A model generated the notes under the pieces. It did no database searches. It had not been told where the DNA came from and saw nothing but the letters and a program-made list of their open reading frames with translations. Below, in pieces: positions 17,808-64,000 of a stretch of DNA of 64,000 bases. The translations under genes and the position numbers were made by a program. Location: contig DATAOI010000064.1 of the NCBI GenBank assembly GCA_036265815.1, positions 1-64,000 of the forward strand, in the 5' to 3' direction. Source of the DNA: Gemmatimonadales bacterium (GTDB lineage: Bacteria > Gemmatimonadota > Gemmatimonadetes > Gemmatimonadales > GWC2-71-9). Numbering within the stretch: position 1 is the first letter of the stretch; each line of letters starts with the position of its first letter.

Positions 17808-19159
17808 GCAGCGCGCCGGCACAGGTGCTCCTGGTCGACGACGAGTCCAACATCCGGCGGATGCTCGCGGCCCTGTTGCGGGAGGAGGGATTCACCGTCG
17901 CGGAGGCTCCCAATGGCAACGCGGCGCTGCTGCAGCTCGATGACGTCGACCCCGACGTCATCGTGCTCGACCTGCTGATGCCGCCCGGCCCGGACGGGCT
18001 GGAGACCCTGGTCCGGATCAGGGAGCGGGGCCTGGGAACACCCGTCATCATGATGAGCGGGAAGGCCCAGCTCACCGATGCCGTGCGCGCGGTCAAGCAG
18101 GGGGCGTTCCAGTTCCTGGAGAAGCCGCTCACTCCGGAATCAGTCCTGGTGACGGTGCGGGCTGCGCTGGAGCTCAACCGCACCCGCGCGGAGAATCGCG
18201 CGTTGCACGCGGAGCTGGCGCGCCGGGGCACGCTCATCGGCGACAGCGCGGCCATGCGGGAGGTGCGCGCCCTCATCGCGCGGGTGGCGCCCACCGAGGC
18301 GCGGGTACTCGTCACCGGCGAGTCGGGCACCGGCAAAGAGCTGGTGGCCGCTGCGATTCATGCGGCCAGCCGTCGGTCGGCGCGGGCGTTCGTCACCGTG
18401 AACTGCGCGGCAATACCCCGCGACCTGGTCGAGTCCGAGATGTTCGGGCACGAGCGCGGCTCCTTCACCGGCGCCACCGAGCGGCGACTCGGCCGGTTCG
18501 AGCTGGCCCACGAGGGCACGCTCTTTCTCGATGAAGTAGGCGACCTGAGCGGTGAGGCCCAGGCCAAGCTACTCCGCACGCTGGAGACCGGGGAGCTGCA
18601 GCGCATAGGGGCGGAGCGCTCGCAACGGGTGGACGTGCGGGTAGTGGCGGCCACCAATCGCAGGCTGGAGGATGAGGTCCAGGAAGGCCGATTCCGGGAG
18701 GATCTCTTCTTCCGTCTCAACGTCTTCCCGTTGCACCTCCCGCCGCTCAGGGAGCGGCTGGAGGATCTGCCGGCGCTGGTGGCCCACTTGAGCGAGCGGG
18801 TGCGCCCACGCTACGCCGCCACCTTCACGCCAGCCGCGCTGGAGGCCCTGGCATCGTATGCCTGGCCGGGCAACATCCGTGAGCTGGCCAACCTGGTGGA
18901 GCGACTGACCATTTTGAGCGGCCCGATGGTCGACGACACGGCGGTTCGCCAGGTCCTGCGAGGGGGTCCCGCCCCGGTCCTGTCACTGCCCTCGCCGGGC
19001 CGGCCGTTGAACGAGGCGCTGGACGACTTCGAGCGCAGAGTCATCGGCGCGGCGCTGGCGCAGGCCGAAGGCAACGTGGCCGAGGCGGCGCGGGCGCTGC
19101 AGACCGACCGGGCCAACCTTTACCGCCGGATGCGCCGCCTGGGCCTCGACCGCCAGTAG
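17804..19159 (+). CDS. NtrX/NtrC-type sigma-54-dependent response regulator
   Basis: 451 residues in three domains: receiver (about 7-120; acidic pair in LLVDDES, phosphoacceptor in VIVLDLLMPP, Lys in FLEKPLTP), AAA+ activator (about 140-370; Walker A GESGTGKE, sigma-54-contact loop GSFTGA in HERGSFTGATERR, Walker B LFLDEVGDL, arginine-finger FREDLFFRLNV) and a C-terminal Fis-type helix-turn-helix (GNVAEAARALQTDRANLYRRM). The loop has Ser for the commoner Ala (GAFTGA), a variant found in working activators. It should open sigma-54 promoters; one candidate occurs in this window at 61434-61449. Confidence 0.9.
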   Translation: MSSAPAQVLLVDDESNIRRMLAALLREEGFTVAEAPNGNAALLQLDDVDPDVIVLDLLMPPGPDGLETLVRIRERGLGTPVIMMSGKAQLTDAVRAVKQGAFQFLEKPLTPESVLVTVRAALELNRTRAENRALHAELARRGTLIGDSAAMREVRALIARVAPTEARVLVTGESGTGKELVAAAIHAASRRSARAFVTVNCAAIPRDLVESEMFGHERGSFTGATERRLGRFELAHEGTLFLDEVGDLSGEAQAKLLRTLETGELQRIGAERSQRVDVRVVAATNRRLEDEVQEGRFREDLFFRLNVFPLHLPPLRERLEDLPALVAHLSERVRPRYAATFTPAALEALASYAWPGNIRELANLVERLTILSGPMVDDTAVRQVLRGGPAPVLSLPSPGRPLNEALDDFERRVIGAALAQAEGNVAEAARALQTDRANLYRRMRRLGLDRQ

Positions 19160-59360: not shown

Positions 59361-60440
59361 GTGGCCGAGTGGATCCTGGGGATCGAGACCTCCTGCGACG
59401 AGACGTCGGCCGCGCTGCTCCGGTCCGAGCGGGGCGGGCGCCCCGAGCTCGGTAGCCTGGTCATCCTGTCGCAAGACGTCCATCGAATATTCGGCGGCGT
59501 GGTGCCCGAGCTGGCGAGCCGGGCGCACCTGCAGACCCTCGGATCCGTCGTGGAGCGCGCGCTGGGAGACGCGGGAATCGGCCTTCCTCAGGTGGACGGG
59601 ATCGCGGTGACCGCGGGACCCGGTCTGGTGGGAGCGCTCCTGGTCGGCGTGATGTACGCCAAGACGCTCGCGATGAGCCTCGACCGGCCGGTGCTCGGCG
59701 TGAATCACCTGGAGGGTCACATCTTCGCACCGGTGCTGGAAGATCCGGAGCTGGGGCCCCCGTTCGTCGCCCTGCTGGTGAGCGGGGGGCACACCATGCT
59801 GCTCGACGTACCGGCCTGGGGTGAGTACCGGCTTCTGGGACAGACGCTGGACGACGCGGCGGGAGAGGCGTTCGACAAGGTCGCCAAGCTGCTGGGCCTG
59901 GGCTATCCCGGCGGCGCCCCCATCGAGCGGCTGGCGCGGGAGGGCCGGAGCGATCGCCATCGCTTTCCCCGTCCCATGCTCCAGGAGCTGGCCCGCGAAG
60001 GCCCCAACCGGTACGCGTTCTCCTTTTCCGGCCTCAAGACGGCGGTGCTCCGCGCGGTGCGCGGACCGGACGGCCAGCGGGAGCTCCCCGAAGCCGAGCG
60101 GGCCGACCTTGCGCGCGGCTTTCAGGACGCGGTGATCGACGTGCTCTCGGCCAAGGCGGCGCATGCGGTGGAGGCGCTGGGCTACGAGCGGGGGATGATC
60201 GGCGGCGGGGTCGCCTGCAACCGGGCGCTGGTGGCGCGCCTCCGCGAGCGGCTGGCGGGACGAGCCCGGGTGAGCGTAGCTTCTCCGCGGCTCAACACCG
60301 ACAACGCGGCGATGATCGCCGCCGCGGGCGCGTGGCGCCTGGCACGCGGGGAGCGAAGCGGGTGGGAGCTCGAGCCGCGCGACGACCTCCCGATCCCCGG
60401 GCTGGTCGCGCCATCTCTCGTCTCTGGACTCGCCTCATGA
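59361..60440 (+). CDS. tsaD: tRNA threonylcarbamoyl transferase TsaD
   Basis: 359 residues. ILGIETSCDETSAALL is the family start, VNHLEGHIFAP holds the two metal His, and LVSGGHTMLL, DDAAGEAFDKVAKLLGLGYPGG and GGGVACNRAL are all present. It completes t6A37 on ANN-decoding tRNAs with TsaB/C/E, which are not in the window. GTG 59361 starts one base after the tlpA-like stop. Confidence 0.96.
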   Translation: MAEWILGIETSCDETSAALLRSERGGRPELGSLVILSQDVHRIFGGVVPELASRAHLQTLGSVVERALGDAGIGLPQVDGIAVTAGPGLVGALLVGVMYAKTLAMSLDRPVLGVNHLEGHIFAPVLEDPELGPPFVALLVSGGHTMLLDVPAWGEYRLLGQTLDDAAGEAFDKVAKLLGLGYPGGAPIERLAREGRSDRHRFPRPMLQELAREGPNRYAFSFSGLKTAVLRAVRGPDGQRELPEAERADLARGFQDAVIDVLSAKAAHAVEALGYERGMIGGGVACNRALVARLRERLAGRARVSVASPRLNTDNAAMIAAAGAWRLARGERSGWELEPRDDLPIPGLVAPSLVSGLAS

Positions 60441-61288
60441 CCATCTATCCCCTGGTCTTTCACCTGGGCCCGCTGGAGATCACCGGCTACGGCATCATGA
60501 TGATGGTGGCTTTCCTCGTGGGAGGCTGGCTGATCTCGCTGGAGCTCCGGCGCCGTGGATTCGCGGAGGACTATGCGGCCGACATGGTGGCCGCCGCGGT
60601 CATCGGCGGTATCATCGGGGCGAAGCTCTGGTACGTGGCCCTCACCCGCGACCCGGGCGCGCTCTTCTCCCGAGGCGGACTGGTGTGGTATGGCGGCTTC
60701 CTCGGCGGGACGGCGGCGGTGATCCTCAACGGCTGGCGCGTTCGAGTCCCCCTCCGCTGGACCATGCAGCTGGTCGCCCCCGCGCTCGCGGCGGCCTACG
60801 CCCTGGGTCGGGTCGGCTGCTTCATGGTGAACGACGACTACGGCCGGCCGTCCAGCGTGCCCTGGGCAGTGCGCTTTCCCCGCGGGCTCCCGCCCTCCAC
60901 CGCCGGCAACATGCAGCACCTGTTCGGCATTCCGGTGCCGGCGGGCACCAATCCGTCGACCGTCCTGGCAGTGCATCCGACCCAACTCTATGAGACCACC
61001 CTGATGCTGCTCGCGTTCGGGGTGCTCTGGAGCTTGAGGCGGCGGATGCGTCCGGTGGGCTGGCTCTTCGGGCTCTACCTGGTGTTCGCCGGCGCGGAGC
61101 GCTTCGCGGTGGAGTTTCTCCGGGCCAAGGATGATCGGTTCCTCGGGCCATTCACGCTGGCGCAGCTGACGTCGGTGATTCTGATCGGGGTGGGCGTCTG
61201 GCTGCTCACGGTCTGGCGGGAGGGGGCCAGTCCGGCGCCTGGGGGCTACCTCGAGGGTGGCAAGCAAGTGACGAGGTCAAAGAATTAG
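60437..61288 (+). CDS. lgt: Prolipoprotein diacylglyceryl transferase Lgt
   Basis: 283 residues, seven membrane helices. FHLGPLEITGYGIMMMVAF, RGGLVWYGGFLGG and the Lgt signature ALGRVGCFMVNDDYGRPS are present; HPTQLYETTLML and EFLRAKDDRFLGPFTLAQ follow. It attaches diacylglycerol to the lipobox Cys, the first step for lipoproteins such as the one at 46308-46730. ATG 60437 overlaps the tsaD stop. It ends the 14-kb co-directional run. Confidence 0.95.
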   Translation: MTIYPLVFHLGPLEITGYGIMMMVAFLVGGWLISLELRRRGFAEDYAADMVAAAVIGGIIGAKLWYVALTRDPGALFSRGGLVWYGGFLGGTAAVILNGWRVRVPLRWTMQLVAPALAAAYALGRVGCFMVNDDYGRPSSVPWAVRFPRGLPPSTAGNMQHLFGIPVPAGTNPSTVLAVHPTQLYETTLMLLAFGVLWSLRRRMRPVGWLFGLYLVFAGAERFAVEFLRAKDDRFLGPFTLAQLTSVILIGVGVWLLTVWREGASPAPGGYLEGGKQVTRSKN

Positions 61289-61315
61289 GCAGTGACGCAA
61301 CTGCTGCAACTTCAA

Positions 61316-61343
61316 TTGATTACAGGTGCGTCTTTTGTAGTGT
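61316..61343 (+). promoter_or_regulatory. Candidate sigma-70-type promoter inside the AT-rich island
   Basis: TTGATT (61316-61321), 16-bp spacer, TAGTGT (61338-61343). It would start an RNA near 61350 that reads to the hairpin at 61564-61601, about 250 bases. The AT-rich setting raises the chance of a random match. Confidence 0.35.
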
Positions 61344-61433
61344 TTAATCCTTCGACATTTTCAGCCCACTCGCGCATTTCTGGCGCTCTTCCCTAAGACC
61401 CAGTACCATAATGACTTACGGTGATGCACCAAG

Positions 61434-61449
61434 TGGCACTGCCCTTGCT
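61434..61449 (+). promoter_or_regulatory. Sigma-54 promoter core TGGCAC-N5-TTGCT
   Basis: TGGCAC (61434-61439), five bases, TTGC (61445-61448) then T: all ten core bases of the -24/-12 consensus with the right spacing. The start point would be near 61460, about 105 bases before the terminal hairpin. An NtrC-type activator with GSFTGA is encoded at 17804-19159. The dyad at 61289-61304 lies about 140 bases upstream, a usual distance for activator sites. Confidence 0.5.
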
Positions 61450-61459
61450 TCTACTTACA

Positions 61460-61605
61460 AGGTCGGAATGAAGAGGACTTTCATCCAAAAAGTGGTAGGT
61501 CGAAGAAGGGTGGAGCGGGCACTTCGGTCCGTCTCCGAAAACTCAGGGGGCGATCTACCACGTACTCGAACGGCTCGCCAGCATTGGCGAGCCGTTCGAG
61601 TTTCG
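61460..61605 (+). ncRNA. Candidate sigma-54-dependent small RNA
   Basis: Predicted from position only: begins about 12 bases after the -12 element and ends with the 17-bp hairpin. Within it, C-TTCG-G at 61522-61527 is a canonical stable tetraloop closed by an imperfect GGAG...CTCC stem (61512-61536). No known RNA family (SRP, tmRNA, RNase P, 6S) is recognised. The ends are estimates. Confidence 0.3.
61564..61601. terminator. 17-bp perfect hairpin (bidirectional terminator candidate)
   Basis: ACTCGAACGGCTCGCCA (61564-61580), loop GCAT, then the exact reverse complement (61585-61601). It stands eight bases beyond the stop of the minus-strand RraA gene and would end that transcript as well as any plus-strand transcript from the island. 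Neither side has more than three T residues, so it is not a textbook intrinsic terminator. Confidence 0.65.
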
Positions 61606-61609
61606 GCAT

Positions 61610-62095
61610 TCAGGGCCGCAGCAGGTCGCGATCGGCTACCAGCATACCATCGCGATCCGCGTACAGGTAGGCGCCGGGAGTGAAGGTCACACCGGCAAAG
61701 GTGACCGGCACGCTCCGCTGCCCCGTTCCCGCCTTGCCGCTCTGCATCGGAACGGCGTGGAGCGCCTTCACCCCTACCGCCGTACCCGCAAGCTCGGCCG
61801 AATCGCGGATGCAGCCGTGCACCACGAGCCCGCTCCAGCCGTTCTGCTGGGCCAGCGCGGCAAGCCGTCCGCCCACCAACGCTGAGCGCACCGAGCCACC
61901 GCCGTCCACCACCAGCACCCGTCCCCGGCCCTCGCTCTCCAGCACCTGCCGCACCAGCGCGTTGTCGTCGAACACCCGCACCGTCTCGATCTGACCCGCG
62001 AAGCTCAACACCCCACCCCAGTCGCGGAACAGCGGCTCCGCCGCGCGGAGGTGTTGGGCGAACTGGTCGCAAAGGTCGGGGGTCGTGAAGCTCAC
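61610..62095 (-). CDS. RraA family protein
   Basis: 161 residues. TPDLCDQF...VRVFDDNALVRQVLESEGRGRVLVVDGGGSVRSALVGGRLAALA and NGWSGLVVHGCIRDSAEL follow the RraA fold exactly. E. coli RraA inhibits RNase E; close relatives are 4-hydroxy-4-methyl-2-oxoglutarate aldolases, which need the G-x20-R-D metal motif (VHGCIRDS is present). Either function is possible. Its ATG overlaps the stop of the upstream permease gene by four bases. Confidence 0.9.
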   Translation of the reverse strand: MSFTTPDLCDQFAQHLRAAEPLFRDWGGVLSFAGQIETVRVFDDNALVRQVLESEGRGRVLVVDGGGSVRSALVGGRLAALAQQNGWSGLVVHGCIRDSAELAGTAVGVKALHAVPMQSGKAGTGQRSVPVTFAGVTFTPGAYLYADRDGMLVADRDLLRP

Positions 62096-64000
62096 CGCGG
62101 CGGCTTGGAGGCGGCAGCCCCGGGGGCCGGCATCGCGATGTTCCTCCGCATCCGCTCCACTTCGGCCTGCATCTCCGCCAGATCGGCTTCCATCCGCTCC
62201 AACGAGCGGAGCAGGTCGTGGTGCGCGCCCCGCCCTTCGGGCACCGTGGCTCGGGTCCGCCGGCGCACCCGGCGGGGCTCCAGCACGAAATTCCAGACCA
62301 GTGCCACCAGGAGCAGGACCAGCAGGAGCCCCTGTACCGCGAGCGACTCTGCCGTGGGGTAAATGCCGAGCGCCGGGATGCGCGGGGCCCAGGGGGCAAA
62401 GCTGCTGGGGATCAGATTGCCTTCCTGCAGCTCGGCGACGCCTTTACCGGCGAACACGAAGGCCATGTAGTAGAGGAACGCGCTGGTGACCGCGAAGAAC
62501 GGCTTGAGTGGAAGCCGCACCCCGAACCGGTGAATGGCCACGTAGATGATGAGCAGGACCACGGAGCCGGCCGCGATGCCGCCCACCACCGGCATGGCGC
62601 CACCGCCGCCGCCAGACAGAAACAGCGCCTTATAGAAGAGCACCGTCTCGAACCCTTCGCGGTAGACCGCCAGGAACGCGGCGGCCGACAGCGCGAGGGC
62701 GGACCCGCTGGACAGGGCGTCCTGCACCTTGCTCTTCACGAAGTGATTCCACTTCACCACTTCCATCTTGGACAGCAGCCAGTAGCTCACGTAAAACAGC
62801 ACCACCGTGGCCACCATCATGGTGCCGCCTTCCAGCGCCTCCCGCTTGGCGGGCGAGAGCACGAAGATCGTCTCCAGCGCCAGCGCGGTCAGCAGGCTGG
62901 CGCCGACGGCGGCAGCCACACCGATGTTGATGTCCCGCTTGCGGTGGCCCGCGCCCATCTTGCTCAGGAAGGTCATGAGGGCGCCGACGATCAGAATCGC
63001 CTCGAGCCCTTCCCGCAGCAGGATGATGAACGACTGGAAGAAGAGATTGACCGGCGAGAGATCGTTGCCGATGGTGCGCTCTGCCTTCTCCAGCCCCGCC
63101 GCGAGTTGGCCCCGGATGGCGCTCAGCTCCGACGGTGTGGCTCCGCCTGCCGCACGGGCCCGGAGCGTCGCGAACGACGCCTCCAGCTCGGCCGCGAGCG
63201 CCGCGTCCTTTGTCCGGACCGTTCGCTCGACCTGCTCGAACGTCATATACGCATCGACCGCGCGAGCCGTCGCCGCGGGGTTACCCGCGCGGGCCAGGGT
63301 GTAGGCCGAATCCACCTGCCCGCGCACCCGGTCGAAGATCTGGGCGGTGGCGGCGGCGCTGGCATCCGACTGGAACGTGCGCACGGCGGCCACCCGGGCG
63401 AGGGCGCCCGGCTCGGTGGCGTCGTGCAACCCGAGGGCCGCGACCATTTGATCGTCCGACATCCGGCCGGTGGTCGCGAACGCCCGGAGCGCCGGCGGCA
63501 CCTCTCCTGCCGGAGCGGGCAGCCGGAGCACGCTGGCGTAGAGCGCCACGGCCCAGCGGTCCTCCGCGGGCAGGCGGGCTTCGAAAGCCGGCATTGCGGT
63601 GCCGACGGTGCCAATGCTGATGCGACGGTAGTAGTCGAGCGGAGAAACGTCGTGGAGCGCGGCGTGATCGGCGAGGTTGGCCGGCGGCGGCTCGAGACCC
63701 GTAGCTTGTGGCCCGTCACCCCGCCCGATGGCACCGTGGCAGCCCGCACAATTCGCCTGGTAGATCTCGGCCCCACGGGCCAGCGACGGCGCCTCGGCGG
63801 GCAACTCGTCGAGCGAGACCCCGAACCGGCGGGACAGCCCCTCGGCCAGGCTCCGCACGCGGGCATCGAGCGTGTCGGGGGGCGAGGTCCGGCTCACCAG
63901 GCGAATCAGGCTGTCGATCTGGTGGAGAGCGGGTTGGGCGCTGTCGCTGGGGAGAAGCGCGGCCGAGCGCCGGGCTTCCTGGAGGAACATGCTGGCCTCC
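62092..64000 (-). CDS. Cytochrome c domain fused to an FTR1-type iron permease, 5' end outside the window
   Basis: At least 632 residues are present and the frame stays open to the window edge. A c-type cytochrome domain (EIYQANCAGCHGAIGRGDG; C-x2-CH haem site, near residue 80 of the visible part; FEARLPAEDRWAVALY) precedes a helical region and a seven-helix FTR1 permease with iron motifs LREGLEAILIVGAL and YREGFETVLFYKAL. The last ~50 residues form a predicted coiled coil. FTR1 moves iron across the membrane after oxidation; a fused cytochrome would take the place of the separate oxidase. The signal peptide must lie beyond 64000. Confidence 0.9.
   Translation of the reverse strand, partial: EASMFLQEARRSAALLPSDSAQPALHQIDSLIRLVSRTSPPDTLDARVRSLAEGLSRRFGVSLDELPAEAPSLARGAEIYQANCAGCHGAIGRGDGPQATGLEPPPANLADHAALHDVSPLDYYRRISIGTVGTAMPAFEARLPAEDRWAVALYASVLRLPAPAGEVPPALRAFATTGRMSDDQMVAALGLHDATEPGALARVAAVRTFQSDASAAATAQIFDRVRGQVDSAYTLARAGNPAATARAVDAYMTFEQVERTVRTKDAALAAELEASFATLRARAAGGATPSELSAIRGQLAAGLEKAERTIGNDLSPVNLFFQSFIILLREGLEAILIVGALMTFLSKMGAGHRKRDINIGVAAAVGASLLTALALETIFVLSPAKREALEGGTMMVATVVLFYVSYWLLSKMEVVKWNHFVKSKVQDALSSGSALALSAAAFLAVYREGFETVLFYKALFLSGGGGGAMPVVGGIAAGSVVLLIIYVAIHRFGVRLPLKPFFAVTSAFLYYMAFVFAGKGVAELQEGNLIPSSFAPWAPRIPALGIYPTAESLAVQGLLLVLLLVALVWNFVLEPRRVRRRTRATVPEGRGAHHDLLRSLERMEADLAEMQAEVERMRRNIAMPAPGAAASKPPR

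Follow-up and report, generated by a model that had tools for sequence, protein, structure and literature searches.

An undescribed, putative sigma-54-type small RNA gene between lgt and rraA in a Gemmatimonadota soil bacterium

Introduction

Does the island that separates lgt from rraA in a Gemmatimonadota soil bacterium hold a sigma-54-dependent small RNA gene, as a reading of the DNA letters alone (hereafter the sequence-only reading) had proposed? We followed up this proposal within the window, that is, the whole stretch of 64,000 nucleotides analysed, and in related genomes, computing homology, structure, promoter conservation and promoter switch, upstream dyads, and the correlation with an activator loop. 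The proposal is supported by a conserved RNA, a conserved promoter core, covariation, and the presence of rpoN, and on this comparative evidence we regard the element as a real, structured small RNA gene, undescribed so far and predicted to be of the sigma-54 type. It probably encodes a free-standing, trans-acting RNA of ~143–145 nt with a Rho-independent terminator, expressed from a sigma-54 promoter that a neighbouring activator would serve via two dyads, and bearing a loop that would bind a protein or ligand. The locus offers a well-bounded RNA family for which promoter, enhancer sites, likely activator, and structure can all be predicted.

Genomic context of the island

The genes flanking the island are as follows.

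60437..61288, plus strand: lgt (prolipoprotein diacylglyceryl transferase; Pfam LGT, E 9.4e-54; synteny), the conserved upstream neighbour of the RNA
61610..62095, minus strand: rraA-like gene (Pfam RraA-like, E 8.7e-43), convergent to the RNA
62092..63990, minus strand: cytochrome c–FTR1 fusion gene (Pfam FTR1 and Cytochrome_CBB3), convergent, the conserved downstream neighbour

The island had been described as AT-rich and devoid of any credible gene. Both descriptions hold, with a GC content of 46.5% against ~70% in the surroundings and with chance reading frames that are interrupted by 1-nt indels between homologues. Wherever the flank is readable, the RNA lies 3' of tsaD-lgt, and next comes either a convergent rraA or a convergent cytochrome c–FTR1 gene, rraA not adjoining the RNA in some relatives. 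No gene on the same strand follows the RNA, the downstream gene being convergent, so it is not a leader, and a riboswitch or leader RNA was rejected on this ground. The fusion gene of this genome encodes a single protein of 632 aa with a cytochrome c domain and an FTR1 iron permease.

Distribution and losses of the RNA

When the island was searched against 100 relatives, its 3' half (61480-61598) matched in many members of the same family, and the aligned matches defined a core of ~76 nt with very high identity. A model of this core (R1) detected it in 25 of 395 Gemmatimonadota genomes, all from the same family and each with one copy, except for G003, in which it was matched on two contig ends. 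A 26th match (G019, 26 bits) was taken as chance, lgt not being nearby, and short matches in G053, G050, and G038 were discarded, since the sequence extracted there has no core and has the look of coding DNA. An exact-pattern search of ~85,000 GTDB species genomes returned 22 stretches, every one from Gemmatimonadota assemblies, and no match outside that phylum. Viral contigs (IMG/VR) likewise contained no match, and viral spread of the RNA was rejected accordingly. Rfam gave no match at gathering, and lax matches fell far below the families' cut-offs, which led us to reject membership in a known RNA family; a literature search brought up no described regulatory RNA from Gemmatimonadota.

Replacement of the region by unrelated sequence in relatives had been named as an outcome that would speak against the proposal, and the result is mixed: the RNA is kept in place in 25 genomes and the promoter core in 16, but some relatives are without the RNA. 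Such relatives are common, and one belongs to the same genus (G001; L098), in which the lgt-rraA gap is only ~45 bp. In another, G060 (L115), a terminator-like hairpin is all that lies between lgt and FTR1. The R1 model found no diverged copies behind lgt in 36 stretches from RNA-less relatives (default filters for 16 of them, no filters for the other 20). A TsaD+Lgt tree, weak in its deep nodes, is compatible with an old element that has been lost several times.

Structure and covariation of the RNA core

The predicted transcript and its parts, all on the plus strand, are the following.

61460..61602, plus strand: predicted small RNA of ~143 nt (start placed 12 nt past TTGC of the promoter, end placed from the hairpin)
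61465..61486, plus strand: 5' hairpin, structure kept, sequence variable
61489..61564, plus strand: conserved RNA core (model R1, 76 nt, 100.4 bits), with covariation
61492-61501 with 61552-61561, plus strand: outer 10-bp stem of the core, 100% of cells paired, four pairs with double-sided changes
61502..61507, plus strand: invariant internal-loop strand GAAGAA (17 of 17 aligned homologues)
61545-61551, plus strand: invariant partner strand AGGGGGC, opposite GAAGAA
61564..61601, plus strand: 17-bp perfect hairpin resembling a terminator, its T tail weak (GTTTCGG); homologues have a hairpin at the equivalent position

From outside to inside, the core consists of the outer stem, the GAAGAA / AGGGGGC internal loop, a GGGU/ACUC helix, and an apical hairpin. 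Its pairs are intact in 99.0% of cells, eight of them show double-sided changes, and its covariation score of 0.226 compares with 0.124 for shuffled alignments (0/500 as high) and at most 0.096 for slid controls, an excess over both kinds of control that marks the element as a conserved non-coding RNA structure. A covariance search on homologous lgt-rraA intergenic regions had been suggested as a check; the comparison of homologues shows a conserved RNA with strong covariation. Upstream of the core, the 5' hairpin has a mean energy of -9.9 kcal/mol across 23 homologues against -5.4 kcal/mol when shuffled, and none of 200 shuffle sets was equally low. The stem, apical loop, linker, and 5' hairpin vary; what stays constant is chiefly the internal-loop strands together with the helix next to them.

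The structural details of the sequence-only reading fared unequally. Its 17-bp perfect hairpin was recovered, and its RNA size of ~140 bases agrees with the ~143 nt between the predicted start and the hairpin end. The CUUCGG letters of its C(UUCG)G hairpin exist, but homologues keep a loop of 6 nt (ACUUCG, ACAUCG, ACUCAG) with a closing C-G pair other than that of a UUCG tetraloop, which is therefore not conserved. A pseudoknot of the GGGGG strand with a C-rich linker was also considered and rejected, the linker reading GUACU in this genome.

Mode of action

The strongest competitor to our reading keeps the promoter and activator unchanged and takes the RNA as a classical antisense sRNA, whose conserved purine stretches would form short seed pairings with mRNAs and so repress or activate them. 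Qrr is a sigma-54 sRNA that acts by pairing. So does the sigma-54 sRNA GlmZ (PMC6075780), and the conserved purine-rich strands here could pair with pyrimidine-rich leaders. Against this, a search for Hfq (PF17209) did not find it in any of seven family genomes (G000, G002, G013, G051, G041, G043, and G114) while finding it in controls, and an Hfq-dependent antisense sRNA was rejected on that basis. Moreover, both strands sit in a closed internal loop and are invariant in all homologues, whereas it is the stem, apical loop, and linker that vary. Perfect 11-nt complements of the two loop strands, compared by position in six genomes, do occur elsewhere, but the RNA gene itself is the only position that the genomes have in common. 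We consider antisense action possible but doubtful.

Three observations modestly favour a protein- or ligand-binding RNA over a classic antisense RNA: Hfq was not found in the seven genomes searched, the purine-rich internal-loop strands alone are invariant, and the genomes share no long perfect complement. The functional site of such an RNA would most likely be the invariant purine-rich internal loop, held by the long stem, and this loop would bind a protein or ligand rather than engage in Hfq-mediated pairing.

A sigma-54 promoter and its sigma-70-type replacement

The predicted regulatory sites, positioned relative to the -24 element, are listed below.

61275..61291, strand not assigned: far activator dyad, GGTCAAAGAATTAGGCA, at -159, matrix score 12.9
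61341..61357, strand not assigned: near activator dyad, TGTTTAATCCTTCGACA, at -93, matrix score 14.9
61434..61448, plus strand: sigma-54 promoter -24/-12 element, TGGCAC-N5-TTGC

The exact core that had been reported is present at these coordinates on the plus strand, and a form of it is conserved in 16 of the 25 RNA-bearing genomes: all 16 homologues outside genus g35 carry TGGCAY-N5-[T/G]TGC (CGGCAC in one), 31 to 42 nt upstream of the RNA core. All nine genomes of genus g35, which is monophyletic with support of 100 in the TsaD+Lgt tree, lack the sigma-54 element and have a sigma-70-type element, TTGAC[A/G]-N17-TAnnnT, at the equivalent position, followed by an RNA with the same core, the 5' hairpin, and a similar predicted length. 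Absence of rpoN had been named as a refutation of the proposal; the gene is present in this genome (PF04552, E 1.5e-62) and in 35 of 38 relatives. Since eight of the nine g35 genomes still have it (the exception, G295, is 86% complete), the promoter switch is not explained by loss of rpoN. At weakly conserved positions of the 16 promoters, counted from the -24 element, A occurs at -39 in 12 and T at -18 in 14; these positions, between dyads and promoter, possibly mark a site for DNA bending or for a second factor.

Upstream dyads

Gibbs sampling upstream of the promoters yielded a dyad, GTCnAAnnnTTnGAC, with a score of 225 against 159–169 in shuffles. Of the 16 promoters, 14 have it near -93 by a matrix, with a second copy near -159 in 12 of the 14 readable ones, and these dyads are putative upstream enhancer sites of the kind expected for a sigma-54 sRNA. 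The two dyads of this genome depart from the consensus and are 66 bp apart. The far one overlaps the 3' end of lgt; its score of 12.9 compares with 7.8 for the 99% level of shuffles, taking the best site in 32 bp. They form the only pair spaced by 62–70 bp in 1.25 Mb, with a matrix partly trained on these very sites. The sequence-only reading had pointed to a dyad ~140 bases upstream, which is real (61294-61303 / 61323-61332, 10 nt, 90%) but has no counterpart seen in relatives; the conserved dyads are the two listed above. In G007, the promoter and an intact activator are present, yet neither dyad is scored by the matrix, and in the g35 genomes dyads are not recognisable with it.

A candidate activator past the window end

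Beyond the end of the window, ~6 kb from the RNA on its downstream side, lies the gene of an NtrC-type response-regulator enhancer-binding protein (contig ~67,101-68,444, minus strand; L245:3102-4445). Its Pfam domains (receiver, AAA+, and Fis-type helix-turn-helix) and its loop of a competent type, GAFTDA, are those of a sigma-54 enhancer-binding protein, and the gene is syntenic in relatives where contigs reach; GAFTDA and GAYTDA are competent loop variants in a Desulfovibrio listing (PMC4641369). Of 15 genomes with the sigma-54 promoter, 14 have an intact loop (GAFTDA/GAYTDA), and all nine with the sigma-70-type promoter have a destroyed one, a correlation confounded by kinship, which Fisher values ignore, so that they are descriptive. 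The lone sigma-54 genome with a destroyed loop, G041, keeps the sigma-54 element and has also lost the dyads, neither being scored by the matrix. Among 13 RNA-less genomes, four (G001, G052, G059, and G049) have an intact loop, and there the activator may have other targets. Across the neighbour and its orthologues (L235, L240, L242, L243, L247, and L262-L275), many lineages of the family have a destroyed loop but an unchanged set of receiver, fold, and helix-turn-helix, apparently a family of sigma-54-deaf activators.

An NtrC-type activator had been noted in the window itself. Such a gene is present at 18233-18733 (L082) but is probably not the regulator, no close orthologue having been found in G013, which keeps promoter and dyads; the neighbour is the better candidate. 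Alternatively, the sRNA could be sigma-54-dependent with another enhancer-binding protein as its activator, for example L079 or L080, both of which occur in all genomes with the sigma-54 promoter, and the kinship behind the neighbour's loop correlation leaves room for this reading. However, L079 and L080 are present in every genome tested, g35 and RNA-less genomes included, and so do not track promoter class; only the loop of the neighbour, which is also syntenic, was seen to do so. We therefore judge another activator unlikely.

With the neighbour as activator, sigma-54 RNA polymerase would wait at 61434-61448, and the protein encoded at ~67,101-68,444 would bind the two dyads and open the promoter. 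The resulting RNA would terminate at the hairpin 61564-61601 and act in trans. Expression of the RNA, its termination, its activator, the way it acts, and its target are what we infer here from the computed features. In genus g35, loop loss in the activator goes together with a sigma-70-type promoter in front of the RNA. More tentatively, although we hold it to be a real possibility, the locus may represent a new family of Hfq-independent, free-standing regulatory RNAs with a dedicated sigma-54 activator, in which an invariant, purine-rich internal loop serves to bind a protein or small ligand; in several lineages of one bacterial family the activator loop would have been lost, and the RNA would then have disappeared or have been retained under a new sigma-70 promoter. 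That several lineages read this RNA from a sigma-54 promoter and one from a sigma-70-type promoter, with matching damage to the activator, constitutes a natural experiment, and this contrast makes directly testable how a tightly gated sigma-54 RNA becomes an ordinary one.

Chance match or coding sequence

The exact promoter core by itself is weak evidence. It occurs once in the window, where shuffles expect 0.09 occurrences (the core turns up in 8 of 100 shuffles), and six times in 1.25 Mb of the same genome against four for the reversed control, which is near background, so the case rests on homology. One could accordingly take the promoter match as chance and the conserved hairpins as no more than the terminator-bearing 3' end of the lgt transcript, a view to which the lone hairpin behind lgt in RNA-less G060 lends some colour. 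Such an arrangement is nevertheless very improbable given that all 16 homologues outside g35 have the -24/-12 element, that the remaining nine have a sigma-70-type element in its place, and that the dyads keep fixed distances. A small conserved protein in place of an RNA, suggested by a 90-codon chance frame that crosses the element in this genome (61411-61683), can practically be dismissed, as 1-nt insertions and deletions within the core among homologues exclude a conserved protein and the stem changes are compensatory.

Relation to known systems

The closest parallel is GlmY/GlmZ with QseE-QseF (GlrK-GlrR) of Enterobacteriaceae, in which an sRNA with a sigma-54 promoter is likewise served by a response-regulator enhancer-binding protein encoded nearby, here a candidate, and by several dyads with TGTC/GACA half-sites (PMC6075780, PMC8745638). 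The half-sites here are spaced by 9, whereas the GlmY/GlmZ sites read TGTC-N10-GACA (consensus in PMC8745638), and there is no Rfam match and no link of sequence family; membership in the GlmY/GlmZ family was rejected on this spacing and on the Rfam searches, in which gathering gave no match and the lax searches list no such family. Further differences are that the candidate activator lies at a distance of ~6 kb, no kinase gene having been seen next to it, and that Hfq was not found in the seven genomes searched here. The glmY gene has an overlapping sigma-70 promoter, so both promoter classes have served that sRNA, but here the sigma-54 and sigma-70-type promoters occur in different genera and do not overlap.

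Among more distant parallels, the response-regulator activators DVU0653 and DVU0679 of Desulfovibrio vulgaris are listed with a nearby ncRNA target, and GAFTDA-type loop variants are listed there as competent (PMC4641369); that organism belongs to a different phylum. NtrC-type proteins of Caulobacter and Rhodobacter without GAFTGA have similarly lost the sigma-54 contact loop and act at sigma-70 promoters (PMC10274813). In contrast to those, loop loss here accompanies the replacement of the promoter of one particular sRNA, dyads not being recognisable in g35. Elsewhere, the sequence TGGCATGTGCGTTGC at L361:19171 (plus strand; contig C78, ~59,171) precedes another activator gene by ~2.8 kb and has a site resembling the dyad at -102 (score 11.5); it is possibly a second sigma-54 promoter.
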